Assembly (NCBI GenBank): GCA_017432325.1
Contig: JAFRJJ010000013.1
Span: 1-64,000 of the forward strand
Direction: 5' to 3'
Length of the DNA stretch: 64,000 bases
From: Solobacterium sp.
GTDB taxonomy: Bacteria > Bacillota_I > Bacilli_A > Erysipelotrichales > Erysipelotrichaceae
This document shows, one piece after another, positions 12,722-24,938 of this stretch. Within the stretch, counting starts at the first letter, position 1; each line of letters begins with the position of its first letter. The notes beneath the pieces are model-generated. The model worked only from the letters and a program-made list of their open reading frames with translations. It was not told the DNA's origin and made no database searches. The position numbers and the translations under genes are program-made.

Positions 12722-13387
12722 TTATTTCGCCAGGCTGCCGTAGAATTCCAGAAATCTGCGGGTGATCTCCTTTTGCGGGTGATACAGGAGCTTTTCAGCC
12801 GGACCGTATTCGTACAGTTCTCCTTCCTGAAAGAACAGCACTTCGTCCGCCAGCCGGCGGGCCTGACTCAGATCATGTGTCACAAGAAGAACAGCGCTGC
12901 CGTATAAATTCCGATATTCGGTGATCAGCTGCTCGGAGATCATTGCGGATTCCATATCCATCGCGGATGTCGGTTCATCCAGGATCAGCAGATCACACGG
13001 TTTCATCAACACCCGTACCAGAGCCATTCTGGCGGTTTCCCCGCCGGAAAGTGAAGAGATCTTCTGCTGTTCGATCGCTGTCAGGTTCAGCCTGCGGATC
13101 AGTTCTTCCGCCCTTTCCGGGTCTCCCCCCGACAGCATAATATTCCTGCGCACACTCATGCGGAACGGATAGCTCTTCTGGGGCATATAACGGATCACCC
13201 CGTCAGACACATGCTTTCCGTTTTTTTCATCCGGATCCAGCACGCCTGCAGTGATCCGGGCAAACGTTGATTTACCGCTGCCATTAGGACCGATCAGGAC
13301 ATAGATCTTCCCGGGATCGAACGTCAGCTGCGGCGTACGCAGCACGGTACGTCTGCCATAGGTTTTTGTGAATGGCGGAATGATCAT
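12722..13387 (-). CDS. tupC: Tungstate ABC transporter, ATP-binding protein
   Basis: From the ATG at 13387 the protein has 221 residues. Walker A is 'GPNGSGKST' near residue 33, the signature is 'LSGGETAR', Walker B is 'LLILDEPTS' and the switch is 'LVTHD'. It drives uptake together with TupB. The start overlaps the end of tupB by four bases (ATGA), so translation is coupled. A longer frame runs upstream to 13627 but only shadows the permease in another frame. Assignment to tungstate rather than molybdate rests on the neighbouring TupA and TupB and the tungsten-type oxidoreductase nearby. Confidence 0.85.
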   Translation of the reverse strand: MIIPPFTKTYGRRTVLRTPQLTFDPGKIYVLIGPNGSGKSTFARITAGVLDPDEKNGKHVSDGVIRYMPQKSYPFRMSVRRNIMLSGGDPERAEELIRRLNLTAIEQQKISSLSGGETARMALVRVLMKPCDLLILDEPTSAMDMESAMISEQLITEYRNLYGSAVLLVTHDLSQARRLADEVLFFQEGELYEYGPAEKLLYHPQKEITRRFLEFYGSLAK

Positions 13388-14070
13388 GCACTGAGTCTCC
13401 TTTGCATCATTGTTACGGCAATATTTACGAGAAGCGAGAGTGCGATCAGGATCATTCCCAGGGCAATACCCAGTGTAAAGCTTCCCCGGTTCGTATAAAG
13501 CATGATCGCAGTCGTCATAACATTGGTTTTCCAGGCGATCGCCCCGCCGACCATGGATACTGCGCCTACTTCCGCGATCGCACGGGAAAATGCCAGGAGA
13601 TAAGTTGAGAAGATCGGATAGACACACTCATTGTAAAGAAGCACGAATGTACGCCTGCGGCCAAGACCCAGTCCGAAAGCGGTCTCATAGATCTGCTGTG
13701 AGATCGGTGATACATATGTTTCCAGATTTGCGATGACAAGGGGCGTGATCAATATTACCTGGGCTATGACCATGATCGTTACCGTGAACAGGAGCTTCAG
13801 TTTTCCAAACGGGCCGACACCGGAAAACAGCATATACATCAAAAGGCCGGCTACTACCGGAGGCATTCCCATCAGTGTTCTGGCTAAAACGATAAATACA
13901 TGTTTTCCCTTGAATCGAGTAGTCCCCAGCCAGATACCGAGAGGCACACCGATCAAAAGGGCGATCAGGGAACTTGTCAGGCATGTTTTTGCCGTAACGA
14001 TCAATATGTTGATCAGTTCACGGTCACCGGAAATGATCAGTTCCCACGCAGTTATAAAAGCACCCAGCAT
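13384..14070 (-). CDS. tupB: Tungstate ABC transporter, permease
   Basis: A 228-residue inner-membrane permease with five to six hydrophobic segments. It has the binding-protein-dependent transport loop ('EVGAVSMVGGAIAWKTNVMT') and the TupB-typical 'TLMGMPPVVAGLLMYMLFS'. The ATG at 14070 is chosen because AGGAG lies eight bases upstream; a GTG two codons earlier is too close to that site. It follows tupA across a GC-rich hairpin and overlaps tupC by four bases. Confidence 0.87.
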   Translation of the reverse strand: MLGAFITAWELIISGDRELINILIVTAKTCLTSSLIALLIGVPLGIWLGTTRFKGKHVFIVLARTLMGMPPVVAGLLMYMLFSGVGPFGKLKLLFTVTIMVIAQVILITPLVIANLETYVSPISQQIYETAFGLGLGRRRTFVLLYNECVYPIFSTYLLAFSRAIAEVGAVSMVGGAIAWKTNVMTTAIMLYTNRGSFTLGIALGMILIALSLLVNIAVTMMQRRLSA

Positions 14071-14092
14071 ATACACAGCTCCTGGAAAATGA

Positions 14093-14110
14093 GGCGGGCA
14101 GCTGCCCGCC
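14093..14110. terminator. GC-rich palindrome between tupA and tupB
   Basis: A perfect 18-base palindrome (GGCGGGCAG/CTGCCCGCC) followed on the minus strand by TCATTTTCC. The T tract is poor, so it probably acts as a partial terminator or mRNA-stabilising hairpin, giving more binding protein than permease, as is common in ABC operons. Confidence 0.5.
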
Positions 14111-14131
14111 CCGTCTTATTAATATCGTATA

Positions 14132-15163
14132 TCAGTTTCCGTTATTGGCCTGGAAGGTCAGGAATGTAGCTTTGTCTGTCAGAATATAGGCATGCATTTC
14201 TTCAGCCATAACAAGGCATGCGCCCATACCGGCATTGGCGGAGATATACCAGTCTGTATAATCCGCATAGCTGTCTGCTTCAGCTGTAATGCCGAGGTCT
14301 TCCGGCCAGAGTGAAAGTTCTTTTGTGTGTGTTCCTGAACCGTCGCCTCTGGAAATGAACGGATACTTGTTTTCAGCGATCGTCTTAAATGCGACAAGCA
14401 CGCTGTCCATATCCTTTACACCGGCAGGATCTTCCGTCGGACCGCAGAGAACAAAGTAATTGTACAGGAAAGAGAGACGCTCTGTATCAAATCCCGGAAG
14501 TACATAAGCAAATCCGTCCTGAACGAATGTTTCTTCCTGTGCCTTGGCATGGACAAAGATCAGATCAGCGTTTCCGTATTTCGCCGCGGCGATAGCTTTT
14601 CCGGTTCCGGCGGACTGGACCTCGACTTTATAACCGTATTTTGATTCGAATACAGGAAGCAGTGCTCCGAGCAGACCCGAGTCATTTACGGAAGTGGTCG
14701 TAGACAGGCGGATCTGTGCTGTCTCCTCTGTTGCCGGTGTGATCTCTCCTTCAAATACTGGAGCACCGTCCAGCAGATAGAACAGACTGTCACCGAATTC
14801 TTCCTGACCAAAGGCAGCTGCCAGTTCTTTTCCTTCTTCCGAAAGGAACCAGTCGATCAGCGCTTCCGCACCTGCGGTGTTGACTTCCACACCATCAACG
14901 GGATTTCCGTCCGCGTCGGTAAACGGTGATTCAGGATTTACCGCAAGCAATGTATAAGTGTTGATCATCTTGTCATCTGCTTCCTTGAGGATGACCGTGT
15001 TGACTGTGCCGGTTTCTGCAGGTGCTGTTTCAGCAGCCGGTTCTGCAGCAGGTGTTTCCGGTTTGTCGGGTTCAGCCGACGGGGCAGCCGGAGATGAGGA
15101 GCAGCCTGTCAGGACACACAGCATCAGTGCGGCTGACAGATTCAGTGATAGTGATTTTTGCAT
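14132..15163 (-). CDS. tupA: Tungstate-binding lipoprotein, apparently circularly permuted TupA
   Basis: The ATG at 15163 has AAGGAGG seven bases upstream, giving 343 residues. A lipoprotein signal ends in 'LTGC' (Cys21), followed by a Pro/Ala/Glu linker to about 53. Residues 152-343 match the N-terminal two thirds of TupA proteins: 'LSTTTSVNDSGLL', 'SAGTGKAI', 'SRGDGSGTHTKE' and 'AYILTDKATFLTF'. The protein then stops. The segment that normally follows ('ILKEADDKMINTYTLLAVNP', a 'DWFLSEEGKELAAAFG' helix and 'LFYL') is instead at residues 55-135, before the TTTS strand. The order of segments is therefore rotated relative to known TupA. Tungstate binding outside the membrane is inferred from the preserved TTTS and GDGSGTH motifs. 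Confidence 0.82.
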   Translation of the reverse strand: MQKSLSLNLSAALMLCVLTGCSSSPAAPSAEPDKPETPAAEPAAETAPAETGTVNTVILKEADDKMINTYTLLAVNPESPFTDADGNPVDGVEVNTAGAEALIDWFLSEEGKELAAAFGQEEFGDSLFYLLDGAPVFEGEITPATEETAQIRLSTTTSVNDSGLLGALLPVFESKYGYKVEVQSAGTGKAIAAAKYGNADLIFVHAKAQEETFVQDGFAYVLPGFDTERLSFLYNYFVLCGPTEDPAGVKDMDSVLVAFKTIAENKYPFISRGDGSGTHTKELSLWPEDLGITAEADSYADYTDWYISANAGMGACLVMAEEMHAYILTDKATFLTFQANNGN

Positions 15164-15173
15164 TTCAATCCTC

Positions 15174-15277
15174 CTTAAAATAACAAACGAGCCTCCGCCA
15201 TACAAAAAGCAATCCGATTCAGGATCAACTTGTATGGAAGAGGCTCGTCCACCGCTTTCAAACGGGATCTGTTATCT
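15174..15277 (-). ncRNA. Structured 5' leader of tupA, possible Moco/Wco riboswitch
   Basis: As minus-strand RNA the leader folds into an outer stem (TTAAAGATAAC with GTTATTTTAA), a small hairpin with a GAAA-containing loop (CCGTTTGAAAGCGG) and a long two-part stem (GAGCCTC + CCATACAA with TTGTATGG + GAGGCTC). The 3' strand of the outer stem ends directly at the AAGGAGG ribosome site of tupA, which suggests translation control. No terminator is seen. Position before a tungstate transporter, next to pterin-cofactor genes, is where Moco/tungsten-cofactor RNA elements occur. The match to that class is inferred from context and shape, not from a consensus alignment. Confidence 0.45.
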
Positions 15278-15282
15278 TTAAC

Positions 15283-15291
15283 GATTATATC
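15283..15291 (-). promoter_or_regulatory. Extended -10 promoter of tupABC
   Basis: The minus strand reads TGATATAAT, an extended -10 element, about 7 bases before the start of the structured leader. No good -35 box is seen, as often with extended -10 promoters. Confidence 0.55.
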
Positions 15292-15383
15292 ATGATATGC
15301 CGGCACATATGTATACAGTGCACGAAAGTATATACAGCAATATGCTTTATCATTGCTTTTTGGAATATAATATCTTACTGTTA

Positions 15384-15406
15384 AATTAAATTCCGCAGTT
15401 TTAATT
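15384..15406. promoter_or_regulatory. AT-rich inverted repeat, candidate LysR operator
   Basis: AATTAAA and TTTAATT form a perfect 7-bp dyad with a 9-base spacer, between the divergent tupA and LysR-type genes. Its symmetry and place fit a LysR-family recognition site controlling both genes. Binding is inferred. Confidence 0.4.
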
Positions 15407-15464
15407 CCATCTTCCGATTGATTGATCAATATCCGCCCTGCAGTTCATACATAGTGATCATCCT

Positions 15465-15470
15465 TATAAT
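15465..15470 (+). promoter_or_regulatory. -10 box for the LysR-type gene
   Basis: TATAAT lies 36 bases before the start codon; the best -35 candidate (GTTCAT, 16-base spacing) is poor. GAAGGAGA at 15490-15497 is the ribosome site. Confidence 0.4.
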
Positions 15471-15506
15471 CCCGGCGTTTTTTATGCGCAGAAGGAGAAT
15501 TTTTTT

Positions 15507-16403
15507 ATGCGTATATCACAGCTGCGTTATTTTGTGACTGTTGCACAGCTGGAAAATATGTCACAGGCGGCAGAACTGCTGCATCTTTCGCAGTCTTCCC
15601 TGTCCAAGAATATTTCTACACTTGAAGAAGAGCTCGGCATGCAGCTTTTTCAGCGCAGCGGAAGACGGGTCATATTGAACGCTGCCGGGGAACGGTTTCT
15701 GGAATACAGCACGATGGCGCTGCGTGAACTCGAATATGCGGTTGACGACATGCAGCTGCTGTCCAGCGGCAGGGAATCCAGGATCAGGATCGGAACAGCC
15801 GGATTCAGTGACCGTCTGGGAGAATGCCTTGCTGAATTCAGGAAACTCGAACCGCAGGCGGAGTTTGAACTGACCGGCAATATTGAGACGCAGGAACATC
15901 TGGACATCAATCAGTTTGATATGCTGATATATCCCGATACTCATAAATATGAAAAATATCAGGGAATGCTGCTGTATGAGGAACGGTATTATCTGGCCGT
16001 CCCTGCAAATCATCATCTTTCTGAAAGCACAGTAGCAGGCACCAAACTGTTCGAAGATGAAAATGTCATATTTCTGCGCAGCGGCAGGTCAGGAGAAGAA
16101 TATCCCTATCATATCTGCAGTGTGCTTGCGCTGCGTTTCCCGTCTGTCTGCTTCGCTGACACGAGGGAGCTTCACTGCAAAATGATCGCCGGCGGACTTG
16201 GCGTTGGATTTGTGCCCCGCACAAGCGCATATCTGTATCAGAAAGAGGAGATCCGTCTGATCCCGATCCTGGATCAGCGTTTCTCACGCAGAATGATGAT
16301 CTGTTTCCGGAGAGAGAAATACCTCTCTGAACTGGCTTCCAGATTCCGTGATTTCGTTCTGGAATATTTTTCTGTCGAAGAAAAACCCGGTGAAACCGGG
16401 TAA
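15507..16403 (+). CDS. LysR-family transcriptional regulator
   Basis: A 298-residue protein with the N-terminal winged helix-turn-helix of the LysR family (1-60: 'MRISQLRYFVTVAQLENMSQ', 'LHLSQSSLSKNI', 'LEEELGMQLFQR') and a C-terminal periplasmic-binding-like effector domain (about 90-290). It is divergent from tupABC and opens the pterin-cofactor cluster, so it plausibly controls tungstate uptake or the aldehyde oxidoreductase. The effector is unknown. The last codons contain a hairpin that is the terminator of the opposing gene. Confidence 0.88.
   Translation: MRISQLRYFVTVAQLENMSQAAELLHLSQSSLSKNISTLEEELGMQLFQRSGRRVILNAAGERFLEYSTMALRELEYAVDDMQLLSSGRESRIRIGTAGFSDRLGECLAEFRKLEPQAEFELTGNIETQEHLDINQFDMLIYPDTHKYEKYQGMLLYEERYYLAVPANHHLSESTVAGTKLFEDENVIFLRSGRSGEEYPYHICSVLALRFPSVCFADTRELHCKMIAGGLGVGFVPRTSAYLYQKEEIRLIPILDQRFSRRMMICFRREKYLSELASRFRDFVLEYFSVEEKPGETG
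16380..16401 (-). terminator. Terminator of the MoeB/ThiF-like gene
   Basis: On the minus strand ACCCGGT, TTC, ACCGGGT is followed by five T, 16 bases past the stop at 16417. It sits inside the 3' end of the LysR coding sequence. Confidence 0.8.
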
Positions 16404-16416
16404 GAACAGTATTGTT

Positions 16417-17091
16417 TCAGCGCAGCGGGATCAGTGTCCATTCCATCGTCCTGAGGTCTGCCATCAGCAGTTTCCCATCCAGGGATGACGGCCTTCCGCA
16501 CAGCAGTTTGACTGCTTCTGCCGCTTCCAAGGCAGCACATGCCGCAGGCGTGAATGACAGGCTTGTTTTTGAAGAAGAAGCCCCTTCACTTCCATAAAGC
16601 CGGTGAAGTATTCCTTCACCCGGACGTATGACCGCAGCCTGCAGGGCCCAGCCCTGAATGGCACCATGCACCAATGTGATCTGATGCTTTGCGCATGTAT
16701 CTTCCAGCAGAAGTCTTGCGGCAACATTATCAAGGGCATCAATGACAAGATCCTGACCGCATACCATTGCATCTGCGTTTTCCGCATCCAGGAAAGCTTC
16801 AAAAACCTTTGTTTTTGCATCCGGATTGATACGCCTGAGCCTTTCCGCAGCTGCCTGTGCCTTTGATCTGCCGAGCATGTCCGGTGAAGAAAGGATCTGC
16901 CGGTTCATATTGGACGCTTCAAAAACATCCCCGTCCGCAAAGGTCAGTTCACCGACACCGATTCTTGCGAGATATTCCAGGACATAGCCGCCCAGGCCTC
17001 CGCAGCCTGCTACAAGCACTTTTTTACATTTAAGAATATCCTGCTCTTCCTTACTGAGGGCAGGGATATTCCGTTCATATCTGGATTCCAT
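16417..17091 (-). CDS. MoeB/ThiF/HesA-family adenylyltransferase
   Basis: The ATG at 17091 has GGAG ten bases upstream and gives 224 residues. The nucleotide site is 'VAGCGGLGGYV' and the conserved acidic/Arg block is 'DGDVFEASNMNRQ', both needed to adenylate the C-terminal Gly of ubiquitin-like sulfur carriers. The two CxxC zinc pairs of classical MoeB are not visible, nor is a rhodanese domain. Its likely partner is the MoaD-like protein at 24943-25179, whose tail ends in Gly-Gly-Gly. It faces moeA and shares an 80-base divergent region. It may act in molybdopterin dithiolene formation. Confidence 0.8.
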   Translation of the reverse strand: MESRYERNIPALSKEEQDILKCKKVLVAGCGGLGGYVLEYLARIGVGELTFADGDVFEASNMNRQILSSPDMLGRSKAQAAAERLRRINPDAKTKVFEAFLDAENADAMVCGQDLVIDALDNVAARLLLEDTCAKHQITLVHGAIQGWALQAAVIRPGEGILHRLYGSEGASSSKTSLSFTPAACAALEAAEAVKLLCGRPSSLDGKLLMADLRTMEWTLIPLR

Positions 17092-17105
17092 AGCACAAAA
17101 GCTCC

Positions 17106-17124
17106 TGCTATTTCCAATATAGCA
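17106..17124. promoter_or_regulatory. Inverted repeat between the MoeB-like gene and moeA
   Basis: TGCTAT and ATAGCA are separated by 7 bases in the short divergent region. It could be an operator for either gene; no clear promoter boxes are visible beside it. Confidence 0.25.
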
Positions 17125-17171
17125 CAGGCGGAAACAGACCTTATTACGATATGTCATAAGAGGAGATACCA

Positions 17172-18395
17172 ATGCTGAAAGTAAAAACACCGGAAGAAGC
17201 GCTGACGATCATTCTGGAGATGCCTCTCTCTGTACAGCCTGCTATGGAGAAAGTTCCTTTGTCACAGGCACATGGCAGGATCCTGTTTGCGCCTCTTAGG
17301 GCTTCAGAATACGTACCTGGATTCGACAGGTCATCCGTGGACGGTTATGCGGTACATTCATCAGATACATTCGGATGCTCGGATGCCATTCCGGCGATCC
17401 TTACCTGCAGCAAACATATCCGGATGGGCGAAACAGCTCAGGAAACACTGCACCCGGGTGAATGCGCAGCCGTTCCGACCGGAGGAGCTGTACCGCCGGG
17501 CGCTGACGCGGTCGTCATGATCGAATATACGGAAGACTATGGCGACGGTACGGTCGGTATCCTGAAAAGTGCAGCGCCGGGCATGAACATGGTCTACCGG
17601 GGCGATGATGTGTTCCCGGGAAAACAGGTACTTCCATCCGGGAGAAAACTGAATGCAGGTGATATCGGGGCACTGGCCGCAATGGGCTGTATGACAGTAT
17701 GTGCTGCCAGAAAGCCGCTGATCGGTATTATTTCCACCGGCGATGAACTTGTCAGTGTGGATGAGACCCCGGAGGAAGGCATGGTCCGCGATGTGAATTC
17801 GGCAATGCTGGCAGCGGCTGTATCAGATGCAGGAGGAGTACCTGTCTGTTACGGCATTGTTCCGGATCAGGAAGAGGTCCTGCATCAGATGCTGGAAAAA
17901 GCTCTGCATGAATGCAGTATGGTCCTGATCTCAGGCGGCAGCTCAGTCGGTGAGAAAGATGTTTCGGAACGGATCATGGAAGAATTCGGAGAGATCCTGT
18001 TTCACGGGATCGCCATGAAACCAGGCAAACCGACGATTCTGGCTTCAGCAGACGGGAAACCCGTATTCGGACTGCCCGGACATCCCGGTGCAGCATATCT
18101 GGTGAGTCAGCTCTTTGTAAAACCTATGCTCGGGCGTCTGCTGGGAAAAACAGCCGGTACGCGAACAATACCGGCAGTTCTGAAAGAAGCGGTCAGCGCC
18201 AATCATGGAAGAGCACAGTATATGGGCGTTTCACTGCAGGAAGAAAACGGCACCCTGTACGCGGTGCCGATCCATTCAAAATCAGGTCTGATCACCGGTC
18301 TGTCCGGTTCAGACGGGTTCTTCGGCATCCCGCGTGACTGTGAGGGTATTCCGGCAGGACAGGTCATTTCAGTCCGCTTTTATTCCGAAGATTGA
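17172..18395 (+). CDS. moeA: Molybdopterin molybdotransferase
   Basis: A 407-residue protein of normal MoeA length. MoeA inserts molybdate or tungstate into adenylylated pterin. Motifs are 'DRSSVDGYAV' in the N-terminal domain, 'IISTGDEL' and 'ISGGSSVGEKD' in the MPT-binding domain, 'FHGIAMKPGKP' and 'GLPGHPGAA'. The C-terminal beta-barrel domain starts near 335. The ribosome site GAGGAG precedes the ATG. It is followed directly by a second MoeA-type gene. Two MoeA proteins in one locus often reflect separate metal choices, which fits a tungsten enzyme here, though this is inference. Confidence 0.92.
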   Translation: MLKVKTPEEALTIILEMPLSVQPAMEKVPLSQAHGRILFAPLRASEYVPGFDRSSVDGYAVHSSDTFGCSDAIPAILTCSKHIRMGETAQETLHPGECAAVPTGGAVPPGADAVVMIEYTEDYGDGTVGILKSAAPGMNMVYRGDDVFPGKQVLPSGRKLNAGDIGALAAMGCMTVCAARKPLIGIISTGDELVSVDETPEEGMVRDVNSAMLAAAVSDAGGVPVCYGIVPDQEEVLHQMLEKALHECSMVLISGGSSVGEKDVSERIMEEFGEILFHGIAMKPGKPTILASADGKPVFGLPGHPGAAYLVSQLFVKPMLGRLLGKTAGTRTIPAVLKEAVSANHGRAQYMGVSLQEENGTLYAVPIHSKSGLITGLSGSDGFFGIPRDCEGIPAGQVISVRFYSED

Positions 18396-18409
18396 CAGGA
18401 GGTTGCTAT

Positions 18410-20320
18410 ATGGCATTTCATTATCTGACCAACATGCCTCTGGAACAGGCAAGAACAGAATATTTTGCTGCTTTGCGGGAAAACGGATTCCGGTATGATA
18501 CAGAGATCATTCCCGTAACCGAGTCACATGGACGCATTACTGCCAAAGCGGTATATGCGCATATCAGTGCGCCGCATTATCTGGCAAGTGCCATGGACGG
18601 GATCGCCCTGAGGTCTTCTTTGACATTCGGAGCCGGTGAAACTACCCCGTTATTTCTGAATCCGGATGACTTTACGGTCGTGGATACAGGTGATCCGATC
18701 CCCGATGGGTGCGATGCGGTCGTAATGATCGAAGATGTGATATACCAGGATAACGGCAAAGCCGCTGTTTATGAACCGGCAGTTCCCTGGCAGCACATCC
18801 GGCAGATCGGTGAAGATATCTGTGCAGGGGAAATGATCCTCGGCTCTCATATCACCATTACCCCTGCCGCGATCGGTGCCATGCTGGCAGCAGGCGTTAT
18901 GGAAACGGAAGTTCTGCGCCGTCCTGTTGTCGGTATTATTCCGACCGGAGATGAGATCGTTCCGCCTTCTGCCAACCCCGGTCCGGGAGATATTGTTGAA
19001 TTCAACTCCTCCATTTTTTCTGCAATGGTAAAAGAATGGGGTGCAGAGCCGAAAACATTCCCGATCGTACCGGATAAGCCTGAACTGTTGCGGGATGCAC
19101 TGTCAAATGCGCTTGAAACATGCGACATCGTCCTGCTGAACGCAGGCTCTTCTGCAGGCAGGGAGGATTATACTGCGCAGATCATTGAAGAAGCTGGTAC
19201 AGTTATATGTCACGGGATCGCGATAAAACCCGGTAAGCCTGCTGTGCTCGGACTGTGCGGAAACAAACCGGTGCTCGGAGTTCCCGGCTATCCTGTGTCA
19301 GGCATTCTGGTATTGAGTGAGATCATCCGTCCGATGCTGGAAATATGGTACAGCGCAGAACCTGCAAAAGAAAAAATGATCCGGGCCGTCCTTGCGCGGA
19401 ATGTTATCTCCGGATTGAAATATCAGGAATATATCAGGGTCCGCCTCGGCAGAGTCAACGGTAAAACCGTAGCCTCTCCGCTCAGCCGGGGAAGCGGTGT
19501 CGTTTCATCATTCATGAAAGCCGACGGAATTCTCGTAATACCGCAGGGAACCGAAGGATATTCAGCCAGGGATGAAGTTGAAGTACGTCTCCTGAAAGAT
19601 GAAGAGATCCTGGATCATACACTTGTGGCGATCGGAAGCCATGATCCCCTGCTGGATGAATGCGCTGACCTGATCCATCTGACGGATCCGAAAATGTTTA
19701 TGAGTTCCAGCCATGTCGGTTCCATGGGCGGTCTGATGGCAATACGCTGGGGAGAAGCACATATTGCCGGAACGCATCTGCTGAATGAAGAAGACGGTAC
19801 TTACAATACTGCCTTCGTAAAGAAGTATTTCCCTAACGGAGGTGTTTCACTTGTGGAATGCGTCGGACGTACGCAGGGACTGATGATTGCAAAAGGAAAT
19901 CCTCTTGGAATCAGGAGCCTGAAAGATCTGAATAAAGAAGGACTGCGTTATGTCAACCGTCAGAAAGGCTCCGGTACGAGGATCCTGATCGATTATCTGT
20001 GCCGGAAAGAAGGACTGGACACGGCGAAGATCTATGGATATGACCGCGAAGAATTCACACACACTTCCGTAGCAGCACAGATCGCGGCAGGAACCGCGGA
20101 TGCCGGCATGGGTATTTATTCAGCCGCAAAGCTGTATGATCTGGATTTCCTGCCGATATGCATTGAACAGTATGACCTGCTGATACGGGATGACGCGATG
20201 AATACGGAGATGGTACAGCATCTGCTGGAAGTACTGCGATCCGATGCATTCCGTGAACGGATCGAAGCGCTCGGCGGATATACCCTGTCTCATCCCGGAA
20301 CAGTACGGGAACACTTCTGA
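18410..20320 (+). CDS. MoeA fused to a periplasmic-binding-protein-like domain
   Basis: From the ATG at 18410 (AGGAGG just upstream) the protein has 636 residues. Residues 1-400 are a second MoeA: 'LASAMDGIAL', 'GIIPTGDEIV', 'LLNAGSSAGREDY', 'CHGIAIKPGKPAVLG', 'GVPGYPVSG'. Residues 405-636 form a PBP-like fold related to tungstate/molybdate-binding proteins, without signal peptide: 'IGSHDPLLDECADL', 'RQKGSGTRILIDYL', 'GTADAGMGIYSAA'. The fusion suggests a cytoplasmic oxyanion-sensing or metal-delivery module attached to the metal-insertion enzyme. This architecture is known in Firmicutes and archaea. It follows moeA closely and is probably co-transcribed. Confidence 0.88.
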   Translation: MAFHYLTNMPLEQARTEYFAALRENGFRYDTEIIPVTESHGRITAKAVYAHISAPHYLASAMDGIALRSSLTFGAGETTPLFLNPDDFTVVDTGDPIPDGCDAVVMIEDVIYQDNGKAAVYEPAVPWQHIRQIGEDICAGEMILGSHITITPAAIGAMLAAGVMETEVLRRPVVGIIPTGDEIVPPSANPGPGDIVEFNSSIFSAMVKEWGAEPKTFPIVPDKPELLRDALSNALETCDIVLLNAGSSAGREDYTAQIIEEAGTVICHGIAIKPGKPAVLGLCGNKPVLGVPGYPVSGILVLSEIIRPMLEIWYSAEPAKEKMIRAVLARNVISGLKYQEYIRVRLGRVNGKTVASPLSRGSGVVSSFMKADGILVIPQGTEGYSARDEVEVRLLKDEEILDHTLVAIGSHDPLLDECADLIHLTDPKMFMSSSHVGSMGGLMAIRWGEAHIAGTHLLNEEDGTYNTAFVKKYFPNGGVSLVECVGRTQGLMIAKGNPLGIRSLKDLNKEGLRYVNRQKGSGTRILIDYLCRKEGLDTAKIYGYDREEFTHTSVAAQIAAGTADAGMGIYSAAKLYDLDFLPICIEQYDLLIRDDAMNTEMVQHLLEVLRSDAFRERIEALGGYTLSHPGTVREHF

Positions 20321-20340
20321 AAAAACTGCCGTGAGGCAGT
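20319..20340 (-). terminator. Terminator of moaC
   Basis: On the minus strand ACTGCC, TCAC, GGCAGT is followed by six T, 13 bases after the moaC stop. It lies between the convergent MoeA-PBP and moaC genes. Confidence 0.8.
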
Positions 20341-20352
20341 CTGCATATGAAG

Positions 20353-20832
20353 TTACTCAGCTTCAAAGAAGAAATCTCCGCTTTTTCCGCCATGCTTTTC
20401 AACCAAGTGGATATCGGAAATGATCATTCGTTTGTCGATTGCTTTGCACATATCGTATATCGTTAACAATGCCGTGGAAACACCGGTCAGAGCTTCCATT
20501 TCCACTCCCGTCCTGCCGTCTGTCCTGACGGTGCATACTGCCTTGATCCGGCAGGTATCTTCCAGCATTTCAAATGTCAGCGCTGCGTTTGTCAGGCTCA
20601 GCGGATGACACATGGGAATCAGTTCAGAAGTCTTTTTGCAGGCCATGATCCCTGCGGTCTGAGCAACGGTCAGCACATCACCCTTGGCGACTGTCCTGCC
20701 GGCCACCGCTTCAAATACTTCCCGGCTCACAGATATGTATCCTTCAGCCGCTGCTGTACGCGTCGTGATCTCCTTCCCGGAAACATCTACCATGCGGGCA
20801 TTGCCCTGTTTGTCAAAATGGGTTAAATCCAT
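20353..20832 (-). CDS. moaC: Cyclic pyranopterin monophosphate synthase
   Basis: A 159-residue protein of standard MoaC length. It converts the MoaA product into cyclic pyranopterin monophosphate, the second half of the first Moco step. Family motifs are '[14 protein letters not shown]', '[10 protein letters not shown]' with the catalytic His, '[12 protein letters not shown]', and 'MCKAIDKRM' with the catalytic Asp/Lys. It is on the opposite strand from its partner moaA and divergent from it across 96 bases. Confidence 0.95.
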
Positions 20833-20847
20833 GTCCGTTACTCCTTA

Positions 20848-20872
20848 TCCTGTATGTTTTCACAGTACAGGA
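20848..20872. promoter_or_regulatory. Inverted repeat between divergent moaC and moaA
   Basis: TCCTGTA and TACAGGA form a perfect 7-bp dyad with an 11-base spacer, placed between the two divergent start codons. The T-N11-A shape resembles LysR-type sites, so the nearby LysR regulator is a candidate binder. Confidence 0.4.
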
Positions 20873-20928
20873 CAGAAACATGATTTGCAATATTTATGAT
20901 TGCCTCTCAGGACGGAGGAATATACAGA

Positions 20929-21909
20929 ATGATTGATCAATATGGAAGAAATATCGATTACATGAGGATCTCCATTACGGACCGCTGCAGTCTGCGCTGC
21001 CGTTACTGCATGCCGGAAGGCGTGGAGCTGGTTCCGATGAAAGATATTCTTTCCTATGAAGAGATCGCTGAGATCGTTTCTGCCGGCGTGAAGCTCGGTA
21101 TCACAAAACTGAAAATTACCGGCGGGGAACCATTGGTGCGAAGAGGCTGTCCTGATCTGATCAGAAGTCTGAAACAGATCCCCGGGATCGAACAGGTCAC
21201 CATGACAACGAACGGTGTTCTTCTGGAGCACTATCTGCCTGCCCTGCTGGATGCCGGACTCGATGCGGTCAACATCAGTCTGGATACATTGAACAGGGAA
21301 CGTTTTGAACAGATTACCGGAAGAGATCTGTTTGTGGAAGTCATGCAGGGAATCAAAGCAGCGGCGGATTCATCCATCAGAACAAAAATCAACACTGTTC
21401 TTCAGAAAGATATCAACACGGATGAGATCCTGCCCCTTGCCGGACTGGCGGAGACATATCCGCTGGATGTCAGATTTATTGAAATGATGCCGATCGGATT
21501 CGGCGCAGAAACAGAAGGTGTATCAAATACGGAAGTCTTCAATACTCTGAAAGAACATTATCCTCAGCTCAGCGATGATTCGTCGGTACACGGAAACGGA
21601 CCGGCGGTCTATGCACATATTCCCGGCTGGAAAGGCAGTATCGGCTTCATCAGTGCAGTACACGGTAAGTTCTGCAGTTCATGCAACAGGATACGCCTGA
21701 GTGCACAGGGACAGATCAAACCCTGTCTCTGTTACGGCGACATTGCCGATCTCAGACCGGTCCTGCGGCAAGGATACAATGCCGAAGACAAACAGGAGAA
21801 ACTGCAGGAGATCCTGTATGACGCGATATTCCATAAACCGCAGGAACACTGCTTTGAGAATTTCGAAAAGATCACCGAAAAGAACCGGATGGTTAAAATC
21901 GGCGGATAG
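20929..21909 (+). CDS. moaA: GTP 3',8-cyclase, radical SAM enzyme
   Basis: From the ATG at 20929 (GGAGG ten bases upstream) the protein has 326 residues, close to the usual MoaA length. MoaA turns GTP into 3',8-cyclo-dihydro-GTP. The SAM cluster motif is 'CSLRCRYC' near residue 22, with 'KITGGEPL' following. The C-terminal cluster site is 'CSSCNRIRLS' plus a later Cys in 'IKPCLCYG'. The extreme C-terminus does not show the classical GG tail. It leads into the MOSC-Mog gene nine bases later. Confidence 0.94.
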   Translation: MIDQYGRNIDYMRISITDRCSLRCRYCMPEGVELVPMKDILSYEEIAEIVSAGVKLGITKLKITGGEPLVRRGCPDLIRSLKQIPGIEQVTMTTNGVLLEHYLPALLDAGLDAVNISLDTLNRERFEQITGRDLFVEVMQGIKAAADSSIRTKINTVLQKDINTDEILPLAGLAETYPLDVRFIEMMPIGFGAETEGVSNTEVFNTLKEHYPQLSDDSSVHGNGPAVYAHIPGWKGSIGFISAVHGKFCSSCNRIRLSAQGQIKPCLCYGDIADLRPVLRQGYNAEDKQEKLQEILYDAIFHKPQEHCFENFEKITEKNRMVKIGG

Positions 21910-21918
21910 GAGGAATAT

Positions 21919-22905
21919 ATGACACAAACAGAAAAAACAGCTGCTGTCGGCAAAGTATTGGCAGTATGCACAAGCCCGGCTAAAGGGACGCAGAAGAACG
22001 AAGTGCCTGAAATCGTCCTGAAGGAAGACTGGGGTATTGAGGGAGATGCTCATGCCGGGAAATGGCATCGTCAGGTCAGTCTGCTGTCATTTGAGAAAAT
22101 TGAGGAATTCCGTCAGCGCGGGGCAGAAGTTGACTTCGGCGCGTTTGGTGAAAACCTGGTTGTCGAAGGATTTGACTTCCGGACTCTTCCGGTCGGAACA
22201 CGGTTCAGGATCAATGACGCTCTTTTGGAGATGACGCAGATCGGCAAAGAATGCCATACACATTGTGCTATCCACAAGATCATGGGTGACTGCATCATGC
22301 CGCGTGAAGGTGTTTTTGCAAAAGTACTGAGAGGCGGAACTGTCAGACCGGGTGATTCTGTAGAACAGCTTTATCTGGAACCGGACCGTCCGTTTACCGC
22401 CGCAATCATTACCCTCAGCGATAAAGGCTCCCGCGGAGAACGCGAAGACAAAAGCGGACCCCTGATCCGATCAATGCTGGAAGAACAGGGATATGAAGTT
22501 GTTGAAACGCTCCTGCTGCCGGATGAGAGAGCACAGCTGGAATATCATCTGAAACGCATCAGCGATCAGAGACAGGTAAATCTCCTCATTACCACCGGCG
22601 GAACCGGATTCTCTGCCCGGGATATCACTCCTGAAGCGACAATTGCGGTATGCGACAGAATGGCGACAGGTATAGCAGAAGCCATGCGGTACTATTCTCT
22701 GCAGATCACACCCAGGGCTATGCTGAGCCGCCAGACATCCGGGATCAGAAAGAAGACGCTGATCGTCAATCTGCCGGGCAGTCCGAAGGCATGCCGCGAA
22801 GACCTTGAATTTATCCTGCCTGTACTGAAGCACGGTCTTGGCATCCTGCGCGGAACAGACGGTGAATGCGGTACCGATGCCGCTGCACCTGCTCATAAAC
22901 ACTGA
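21919..22905 (+). CDS. MOSC domain fused to MogA-type molybdopterin adenylyltransferase
   Basis: The 328-residue protein joins a MOSC domain (about 8-152; 'DWGIEGDAHAGKWHRQVSLL', the Cys-containing 'IGKECHTHCAIH', 'GVFAKVLRGG') to a MogA/MoaB domain (about 158-320; 'IITLSDKGSRGEREDKSGP', 'LLITTGGTGFSARDITPEA', 'IVNLPGSPKA'). MogA adenylates the pterin before MoeA adds the metal; MOSC domains bind or transfer sulfur or cofactor in related enzymes. The C-terminus is His-containing. It sits nine bases after moaA with a strong AGGAGG, so the two are one transcript. This fusion is known in some anaerobes. Confidence 0.9.
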   Translation: MTQTEKTAAVGKVLAVCTSPAKGTQKNEVPEIVLKEDWGIEGDAHAGKWHRQVSLLSFEKIEEFRQRGAEVDFGAFGENLVVEGFDFRTLPVGTRFRINDALLEMTQIGKECHTHCAIHKIMGDCIMPREGVFAKVLRGGTVRPGDSVEQLYLEPDRPFTAAIITLSDKGSRGEREDKSGPLIRSMLEEQGYEVVETLLLPDERAQLEYHLKRISDQRQVNLLITTGGTGFSARDITPEATIAVCDRMATGIAEAMRYYSLQITPRAMLSRQTSGIRKKTLIVNLPGSPKACREDLEFILPVLKHGLGILRGTDGECGTDAAAPAHKH

Positions 22906-22918
22906 ACTGCATATAACT

Positions 22919-22939
22919 GTCCCGCCCGCGGGACATTTT
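22919..22939 (+). terminator. Terminator of the moaA operon
   Basis: GTCCCG, CCCG, CGGGAC followed by ATTTTCC, 14 bases past the stop. The stem is short but GC-rich. Confidence 0.55.
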
Positions 22940-23001
22940 CCTTATGCCAAAAAGCGATCAGGAATTCTCCTGTGCTTGCTATAAACAATAAGGATTAAAA
23001 A

Positions 23002-23040
23002 TATAATGAAATTGAACACAACGGTTATGCATGATGCATA
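23002..23040 (+). promoter_or_regulatory. -10 box and 15-base palindrome upstream of the aldehyde oxidoreductase
   Basis: TATAAT lies at 23002-23007, without a well-spaced -35. The perfect palindrome TATGCATGATGCATA follows at 23026-23040, in the likely start of the message, 57 bases before the start codon. A regulator bound there would block transcription; which one is unknown. Confidence 0.45.
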
Positions 23041-23096
23041 GCAATGAAGCATACTGCGTAAACAATAATAAAAAAGTTTCAGGAAAGGAATGAATT

Positions 23097-24938
23097 ATGT
23101 TTGGCTACAATGGAAAAATGCTGTTTGTAAATCTGACGACCGGTGTTATGGAAGACCGTGTCCTGGATGAAAAACTGGCGAAAAACTTCCTCGGCGGTCC
23201 GGGTCTGGGTGCCCGTATCCTGTACGAAAATATGCCGGCACATGCAGATCCGTTCGGACCTGACAGCATGGTCGGATTTGTTACCGGACCGGTAAACAAT
23301 ACCGGTGCCCTGTTTGGCGGACGTTATACCGTCGTTTCAAAGTCACCCGTTACCGGCGGCTGGAATGACGCCAACTCCGGCGGCTATTTCGGACCCGGTC
23401 TGAAAAAAGCAGGTTATGACGCGGTATTTGTCAACGGAATCTCAGATCATCCGGTCTATATCTATATTGAAGACGGAAAAGCAGAGATCCTGGATGCCGG
23501 TGAGCTTTGGGGAAAAACAACTCTGCAGACAGAAGCATGGCTGCAGGAAAAGCATGGCAAAGATATTCAGGCTGCCCTGATCGCACCGGGCGGAGAACGC
23601 ATGGCGCTGACAGCCGCGGTCATGAACAACGGACACCGTGCAGCCGGAAGAGGCGGCTCCGGTGCTGTTATCGGCTCAAAGAAACTGAAGGCGATCGTTG
23701 TAAAAGGAGACATCCCTACCGAAGTAGCTGACCGTGAAGCAATGATCCAGACAAACCGTGATATTGCCCAGTATATGCAGACCGGTGCCGGTGCACCGAC
23801 TGCCGGTGCACTCGGTACTTACGGAACCGGTGTCGGATTTACCAATTCCGTTCTTTCCGGTGATGCCGGTATCAAAAACTGGAGCGGATCCGGTGTGGCT
23901 GATTTCCCGGAACAAATTGCGTTCCCGATCGGCAGTATCGGAATGGACCAGTTCAAGAAGAAAAAGTACAACTGCTCCAACTGCCCGATGGGCTGCGGTG
24001 CGTTTATGGACTTCCCGAGTGATAAGTATGATCTGAAGGATTCCCCGCGTCCTGAATACGAGACTCAGGGTGCATTCGGTTCCCTGCTGCTCAATAACGA
24101 TGTAGCGTCTGTTGCGCAGTGCAATAACCTCTGCAATGAGTACGGTGTAGACACGATCTCCACAGGTTCAACAATTGCCTGGGCTATGGAATGCTATAAC
24201 GAAGGTGTTCTCAGCAAAGAAGAACTGGATGGAATCGATCTGACATGGGGCAACAGCGACGCGATCGTTGAACTGTGTGAAAAGATGTGCCGCGGCGAAG
24301 GTGTCGGTGCGATCCTGGCACTCGGTTCCCAGGAAGCCTGCCGCAGATTTGGAAAAGGCGAAGAATTCCTCGTTACAGCAAGCGGCATTGAAGAACCCCA
24401 GCATGACAGCCGTCTATCACACGGTCTTTCCCGTACCTACCGGTTTGACCCAACACCTGGCAGACATGTCAAGGGCGGTCTTGGTATAAACCCGCTGCCT
24501 GCTGACTTTGACTATTCGAAGAGCGGAGAAGGCGACAAGATGGGTGTGATCGGAACAGAGATCTGCAATGCCGGCGGCTTCTGCCTTTTCGGAATGTCCG
24601 TTACCCAGCCGGATGCTTATCAGCGTCTGCTGCAGGCTGTTACCGGATTCACTTATACTCCTGAAGAATATGCCGCACTCGGTACGCGTATCTACTACAT
24701 GCGTCATGCATTCAATCTGAGAGAAGGCATGAACCGTGACAGCTTCACATTCTCCAAGCGTTTCACTCAGGCATCCCCTCCGTTCACCGGACCGCTGAAG
24801 GACGCTAACGTACCTGCGGACCTGCTGGCCGACAACTTCTTTGACGCAATGCATTTGGACCGCCAGACTCTGATTCCCGAGAAAGAATATCTCGAGTATC
24901 TCGGTGAACTGGATCTTGTGGAGAAAGATCTGTATTAA
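23097..24938 (+). CDS. aor: Tungsten-type aldehyde:ferredoxin oxidoreductase
   Basis: A 613-residue protein of normal AOR length and start ('MFGYNGKMLFVNLTTG'). These cytoplasmic enzymes oxidise aldehydes to acids and reduce ferredoxin, using a bis-pterin tungsten centre and one [4Fe-4S] cluster. The cluster site is 'CSNCPMGC' near residue 291, with the distal Cys in 'NAGGFCLFG' near 500. Pterin-binding stretches such as 'GRGGSGAVIGSKKLKAI' and 'DTISTGSTIAWAMECYNEG' are present. Its own promoter region follows the moaA operon, and a MoaD-like gene follows. No separate electron-transfer subunit is adjacent, so it probably works with free ferredoxin. Metal identity is inferred from family and tupABC. 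Confidence 0.93.
   Translation: MFGYNGKMLFVNLTTGVMEDRVLDEKLAKNFLGGPGLGARILYENMPAHADPFGPDSMVGFVTGPVNNTGALFGGRYTVVSKSPVTGGWNDANSGGYFGPGLKKAGYDAVFVNGISDHPVYIYIEDGKAEILDAGELWGKTTLQTEAWLQEKHGKDIQAALIAPGGERMALTAAVMNNGHRAAGRGGSGAVIGSKKLKAIVVKGDIPTEVADREAMIQTNRDIAQYMQTGAGAPTAGALGTYGTGVGFTNSVLSGDAGIKNWSGSGVADFPEQIAFPIGSIGMDQFKKKKYNCSNCPMGCGAFMDFPSDKYDLKDSPRPEYETQGAFGSLLLNNDVASVAQCNNLCNEYGVDTISTGSTIAWAMECYNEGVLSKEELDGIDLTWGNSDAIVELCEKMCRGEGVGAILALGSQEACRRFGKGEEFLVTASGIEEPQHDSRLSHGLSRTYRFDPTPGRHVKGGLGINPLPADFDYSKSGEGDKMGVIGTEICNAGGFCLFGMSVTQPDAYQRLLQAVTGFTYTPEEYAALGTRIYYMRHAFNLREGMNRDSFTFSKRFTQASPPFTGPLKDANVPADLLADNFFDAMHLDRQTLIPEKEYLEYLGELDLVEKDLY

Follow-up and report, generated by a model that had tools for sequence, protein, structure and literature searches.

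A Circularly Permuted Protein of the TupA Family in a Tungsten Gene Cluster of Solobacterium sp.

Introduction

The window analyzed here, a stretch of 64,000 nucleotides from a contig (JAFRJJ010000013.1) of the Solobacterium sp. assembly GCA_017432325.1, contains a gene whose product resembles the tungstate-binding protein TupA over its whole domain but presents the parts of that domain in a different order. The locus raises the questions of whether this order reflects a natural circular permutation of TupA, how such a protein could have arisen, and whether it would still serve in tungstate uptake. For natural permutation in a substrate-binding protein we found one precedent, MglB-2 (Tp0684) of Treponema pallidum and its relatives. 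MglB-2 is a "Type Ic / Cluster Bc" glucose-binding protein, and its type of permutation is also known from gram-positive gut bacteria (PMC4990184). A search of the literature outside subscription papers found no prior report of a permuted TupA or of a permuted tungstate- or molybdate-binding protein.

Results and Discussion

Segment Order of the Predicted Protein

The gene and the parts of its product, all on the minus strand, are as follows.

14132–15163 (−): permuted tupA, whole CDS for a 343-amino-acid lipoprotein with its ATG at 15163 (ORF and homology)
15101–15163 (−): signal peptide to the lipobox Cys (LTGC), residues 1–21 (translation)
15005–15100 (−): Ala/Pro/Glu low-complexity tether, residues ~22–53 (translation)
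14774–15001 (−): moved segment, residues ~55–130, homologous to the canonical TupA C terminus (HMM profile 177–239; 3muq 184–235)
14714–14773 (−): new connection, residues ~131–150, between the old C terminus and the old N terminus (alignment and model)
14141–14713 (−): N-terminal and middle part of TupA, residues 151–341 (HMM, PDB matches, and VIA)

An AAGGAGG ribosome-binding site stands upstream of the start codon, and the stop codon lies at 14132. The initial annotation had described this ORF, at these coordinates, as a TupA in which the C-terminal segment precedes the TTTS...TDK part, and translation and HMM alignment agree with that description. It had placed the moved segment at residues 55–135 and the linker at 136–150; here the segment itself stood but its limits did not, the match reaching to about residue 130 and the connection spanning about 131–150.

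A canonical HMM was built solely from 32 TupA proteins of ordinary order, taken from whole genomes. A comparison of native and restored order had been proposed for this protein. In native order the window domain (numbered from residue 54) matched in two swapped pieces, 4–77 with profile positions 177–239 (i-Evalue 3.7e-10) and 98–287 with positions 1–173, so that TupA homology covers the whole domain (1–173 plus 177–239 of 239 positions). In restored order it gave one full-length match, to positions 1–239, with a score of 242.9 bits, against 197.1 bits when the moved segment was shuffled and 198.8 bits when it was removed. Just three profile positions lie between the two parts, in keeping with the earlier claim that rejoining the ends leaves no gap. 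A phmmer comparison with TupA proteins of the PDB told the same story, residues 149–338 aligning with 5–179 of 3muq and residues 56–118 with 184–235, in reversed order.

The best PDB sequence relatives are four TupA-type structures (3muq, 3lr1, 3kn3, and 5my5), and Pfam recognizes PBP_like_2 (144–338) and SBP_bac_11 only; neither source places the protein in the MglB-2 or Type I sugar-binding family. The NCBIfam equivalog model for TupA (NF041772) matches in two stretches with 144.2 bits, under its cut-off of 400, as is expected of a collinear model applied to a permuted sequence. The initial annotation had named a second copy of the C-terminal segment beyond the stop codon as evidence against a permutation, and none occurs in the three frames of the 55-base gap before tupB.

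Recurrence across Genomes

A search for further permuted members, also suggested beforehand, found 22 other loci, making 23 with the window; these others are 65–86% identical to the window protein over the domain. A contig scan supplied 17 full-length relatives and one fragment at a contig edge. Their genomes are all metagenome-assembled or of uncultured organisms, mostly of gut and rumen, under the names Oscillospiraceae, Lachnospiraceae, or Clostridia. Five more (L061–L063, L069, and L070) turned up when the orders around two of those genomes were sampled. All 23 proteins behave alike against the canonical HMM, with a mean of 240.1 bits in restored order versus 197.7 bits with the segment shuffled, and in every one the canonical order, with the TTTS strand first, is replaced by the swapped one. 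The new connection is itself conserved among them, as GAPxxxGEIxxATEET.

Ordinary order is that of most TupAs in the groups sampled, and a plasmid collection yielded canonical-order partial matches only, with no record covering 80%. In 18 genomes examined the permuted protein is the sole TupA found, with no canonical paralogue beside it. One genome (G732) has, in addition to a permuted tupA, a gene for a further TupA-like protein of ordinary order with a LysM-like N-terminal domain (L134:1625–2893, minus strand).

Ligand Site, Gene Neighborhood, and Predicted Role

In the TupA of Desulfovibrio the residues named at the oxyanion site are T9–11, S12, H59, R118, T124, and D170 (PMC5517513). All eight of these residues are identical in 23/23 permuted proteins; in the window protein they are TTTS 155–158, H205, R272, T278, and D330. 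The genes around the permuted tupA are the following.

12722–13387 (−): tupC-like ATPase, 221 amino acids, true start probably ATG 13387 (Pfam ABC_tran; start codon)
13384–14076 (−): tupB-like permease (NCBIfam NF041773, 150.7 bits, below its cut-off of 320; NF038017, above its cut-off)
15507–16403 (+): divergent LysR-family regulator (Pfam)
16417–17190 (−): MoeB/ThiF-like adenylyltransferase
17172–18395 (+): MoeA
18392–20320 (+): MoeA–PBP_like domain fusion
20896–21909 (+): MoaA (radical SAM)
21919–22905 (+): MOSC and MoCF_biosynth fusion
23097–24938 (+): aldehyde:ferredoxin oxidoreductase (AOR), of a tungstoenzyme family (AFOR_N, AFOR_C)

Both tupB and tupC thus adjoin the window tupA, the operon arrangement of TupA, and at nearly every permuted locus tupB or tupC follows directly downstream, with genes for MoeA, MoeA–PBP, MoaA, MOSC, or AOR nearby. 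Compared with the TupA proteins of Desulfovibrio alaskensis (5my5) and Geobacter (3lr1) and the family model NF041772, the permuted protein shares homology over the full domain, the ligand residues TTTS/H59/R118/T124/D170 (5my5 numbering), the operon partners, and the predicted fold elements; it differs in its swapped order, an extra loop in the moved segment, an extra lobe B helix, and a long tether.

Because the gene lies within a tup–Moco–AOR cluster, tungstate uptake is its likely role, and we infer from the same cluster and from the invariant ligand residues that the protein binds tungstate. ModA was found to be absent from 14 of the 25 genomes examined, the window's genome among them, so that in the latter the permuted TupA is the only recognized molybdenum or tungsten oxyanion-binding protein. 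The WO4(2-) ion would be held between TTTS and His of lobe A and Arg, Thr, and Asp of lobe B, and would then be passed to TupB–TupC, feeding the cofactor supply of the neighboring AOR. Our reading as a whole, with a probability of about 0.93, is that the gene encodes a naturally permuted TupA acting as the lipid-anchored binding protein of a TupABC system that imports tungstate for AOR.

It is unlikely that the protein has kept a permuted TupA fold but now binds molybdate or some other oxyanion, or serves as a sensor instead of an importer subunit. The permuted proteins have an insertion in lobe B that is specific to their lineage, a conserved Cys (VLCGP), and an altered YNY motif, all of which could suit such a change, but the ligand residues are invariant, tupB and tupC adjoin, AOR and Moco genes are near, and 18 of the genomes have no other TupA.

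Origin of the Permuted Chain

Circular permutations usually arise by duplication, fusion, and truncation. A maximum-likelihood tree of order-restored sequences unites the permuted proteins in a single group (100/100), whose sister is a protein of ordinary order, L064 (99/92), 60% identical in the core. This canonical TupA belongs to genome G855 (its locus there also recorded as L137) and is encoded, together with AOR, MoeB, and MogA, in a tupA–tupB–tupC–moeA–moeA/PBP cluster, nearly the gene set of the window; it differs from the permuted proteins in its ordinary order and in the RNA element that precedes it (see below).

A C-terminal-like segment might instead have come from another gene by domain shuffling and taken the place of a lost C terminus, an alternative that the authors of the MglB-2 study raised for their own protein (PMC4990184). 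The moved segment has a mean identity to canonical TupA of 32%, versus 45% for the core, and carries an extra loop of about 11 residues; in a tree of the moved segment the groups do not separate, the segment being too short. Canonical proteins among themselves, however, show a like gap (core 49% versus segment 38%), and among canonical proteins L064 comes closest in all 23 cases for the core and in 22 of them for the moved segment. That both parts have the same nearest protein favors permutation inside one gene over a foreign segment, and we regard shuffling as quite improbable.

Under permutation within one gene, a single event of duplication, fusion, and truncation would have acted on an L064-like tupA, although no duplicated tupA intermediate was seen in this analysis. 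The cut would lie in the loop that follows the last helix of lobe B and leads to the strand preceding the second inter-lobe crossover, with the old lobe A termini joined through the connection of about 20 residues.

Predicted Fold

An AlphaFold2 model from the 23-sequence alignment has a pLDDT of 92.2 and a pTM of 0.86, with nothing below 70; the connection at ~131–150 is included and predicted to be ordered, in blocks of pLDDT about 96–97. The moved segment comprises the last strand of lobe B, a crossover, and then part of lobe A (model elements E3–7 to H67–70). The initial annotation had suggested a structure prediction to see whether one intact two-lobe fold forms; the model is confident, and its elements correspond to those of the canonical sister L064 in permuted order. 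Its elements E3–7, E14–22, H43–53, H56–64, and H67–70 match, in order, the last five of the L064 model (E180–184, E190–198, H208–218, H221–229, and H232–235), and E97–103 to H278–286 match the first fifteen L064 elements, with one extra helix (H243–249).

In VIA the permuted model aligns with 3lr1 (Z 17.1, rmsd 2.0, 181 residues) and 5my5 (Z 15.2) over just 180–181 residues, because sequential aligners can follow a permuted chain on one side only; the matches of VIA and Foldseek lie mainly at model residues ~93–290. The model of the canonical sister L064, which served as the yardstick instead, aligns with 5my5 over 240 residues (Z 32.7).

In 5my5, lobe A consists of residues 2–76 and 201–251 and lobe B of residues 91–200 (PMC5517513). 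By alignment the cut maps ~13–20 residues before the 200/201 crossover, and from this position it follows that both crossovers would be retained and that the new connection would link two old lobe A ends; homology likewise assigns both joined termini to lobe A. The predicted model and the order in which its elements come would put the moved segment at the place of the canonical C terminus, and the permuted chain is predicted to fold as one intact two-lobe domain. A domain-swapped dimer, in which the N-terminal segment completes the lobe of a neighboring molecule, would be compatible with a monomer prediction, but the monomer model is confident throughout, the connection at 131–150 included, and such a dimer seems very improbable.

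Four lines of evidence support a circular permutation of TupA: HMM and PDB matches that are swapped and then merge when order is restored, recurrence, a sister of ordinary order, and the predicted fold.

Host Genome and Probable Horizontal Acquisition of the Cluster

The tungsten cluster at 12722–24938 (tupABC, LysR, MoeB-like, two MoeA, MoaA, MOSC–MoCF, and AOR) was found in just one of 70 genomes from the genus; permuted tupA and AOR are absent from the 69 other congeneric genomes, and the window AOR is the sole one in the 70. The single rpoB of this genome is on the window contig and is 78–86% identical to near-complete copies from congeners and less than 73% identical to those of other families of the order; an rpoB of the genus type on the contig indicates that the contig is not misbinned. 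The chance that the swapped order stems from faulty assembly or binning, or that the gene is a broken pseudogene, is close to nil and we rule it out, for although the window genome is a 90-contig draft and the gene is missing from other genomes of the genus, 23 loci in different genomes and unrelated assemblies share the same junctions and the conserved connection in open frames with no stops, and the contig carries that genus-type rpoB. In the tree the window protein clusters with L023 and L061, which belong to other lineages, and the species has probably gained the whole cluster horizontally, the alternative being loss elsewhere in the genus.

Elsewhere in the window a ribosomal protein L10 leader (RF00557; 41082–41213, minus strand) precedes rplJ/rplL, downstream of which rpoB and then rpoC (the latter named by length and position) occupy 39421–31330.

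Comparison with MglB-2

Like MglB-2, the permuted TupA is a natural circular permutation in a lipid-tethered binding protein of an ABC transporter. MglB-2 has a Type I fold and a sugar ligand, and in it N-terminal strands have moved to the C terminus, with little similarity left in the moved part, whereas the permuted protein here has the TupA fold and a C-terminal segment moved to the front, with clear homology and a known canonical sister. The authors of the MglB-2 study propose a tie between permutation and membrane tethering (PMC4990184). The tether from the lipid-bearing Cys to the domain has a median length of 45 amino acids in the permuted proteins versus 10 in canonical ones, which fits that idea.

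Few natural permutations combine a clear sequence signal with a known unpermuted sister. The permuted clade and L064 form a before-and-after pair in which the effect of permutation on a Venus-flytrap protein, and its relation to lipid tethering, could be studied. A survey of tungsten use among gut bacteria that depends on a full-length TupA match may overlook genomes with the permuted form, because a collinear TupA model scores the permuted chain far under its cut-off.

A Candidate RNA Element Upstream of Permuted tupA

The region 5′ of the permuted tupA contains one further feature.

15229–15264 (−): 36-nt RNA hairpin, sharing sequence with the 5′ arm of a terminator-like hairpin that extends to about 15180 (conservation)

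The conserved hairpin GAAAGCGGUGGACGAGCCUCUUUC stands before the permuted tupA in the window (15180–15264, minus strand) and at L023–L031, L035, L036, L038, L039, L061, L062, and L070; the sequence GGUGGACGAGCC occurs in the window, in 13 of the 17 contig loci, and in 3 of the 5 later ones, about 85–250 nt upstream of the start codon. Copies were gathered with the pattern GTGGACGAGCC, and the invariance of the core is thus partly a result of selection. Several loci show changes in both arms of the outer stem of the small hairpin, with 88% of cells paired and 8 double changes, and none of 500 shuffles gave covariation as high, although sliding by −1 gives a similar score. In most of 18 copies the 3′ half of the element doubles as the 5′ arm of a stable hairpin, behind which a T-run usually stands; with this half shared, the small hairpin and the terminator-like hairpin would be mutually exclusive, in the manner of an attenuator.

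No Rfam family matched the element. In a set of 245 genomes from one order, all those with matches at E < 1e-7 have permuted tupA. Directly upstream of the canonical sister tupA, in the same place as the hairpin/terminator element at the permuted loci, is a Moco/Tuco riboswitch (RF01055, 71.9 bits, L137:3896–4042). The element is a candidate attenuator or riboswitch of a tungsten-uptake regulon and, if real, would be a new regulatory element linked to tungsten uptake. A broader scenario, to which we give somewhat less than even odds, joins a single origin of the permuted clade to a regulatory switch, from the Moco riboswitch to an undescribed RNA attenuator (the GGUGGACGAGCC hairpin versus the terminator) that also precedes metal-chelate-type ABC transporters in some genomes.

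More strong copies of the element occur at L127:1608, L128:1424, L129:3722 (minus strand), and L130:1477. Among these extra copies, one lies 5′ of a methyltransferase and a FecBCD-type transporter, others are near two further FecBCD-type transporters, and another is 5′ of a large lipoprotein with an Oxidored_molyb domain.
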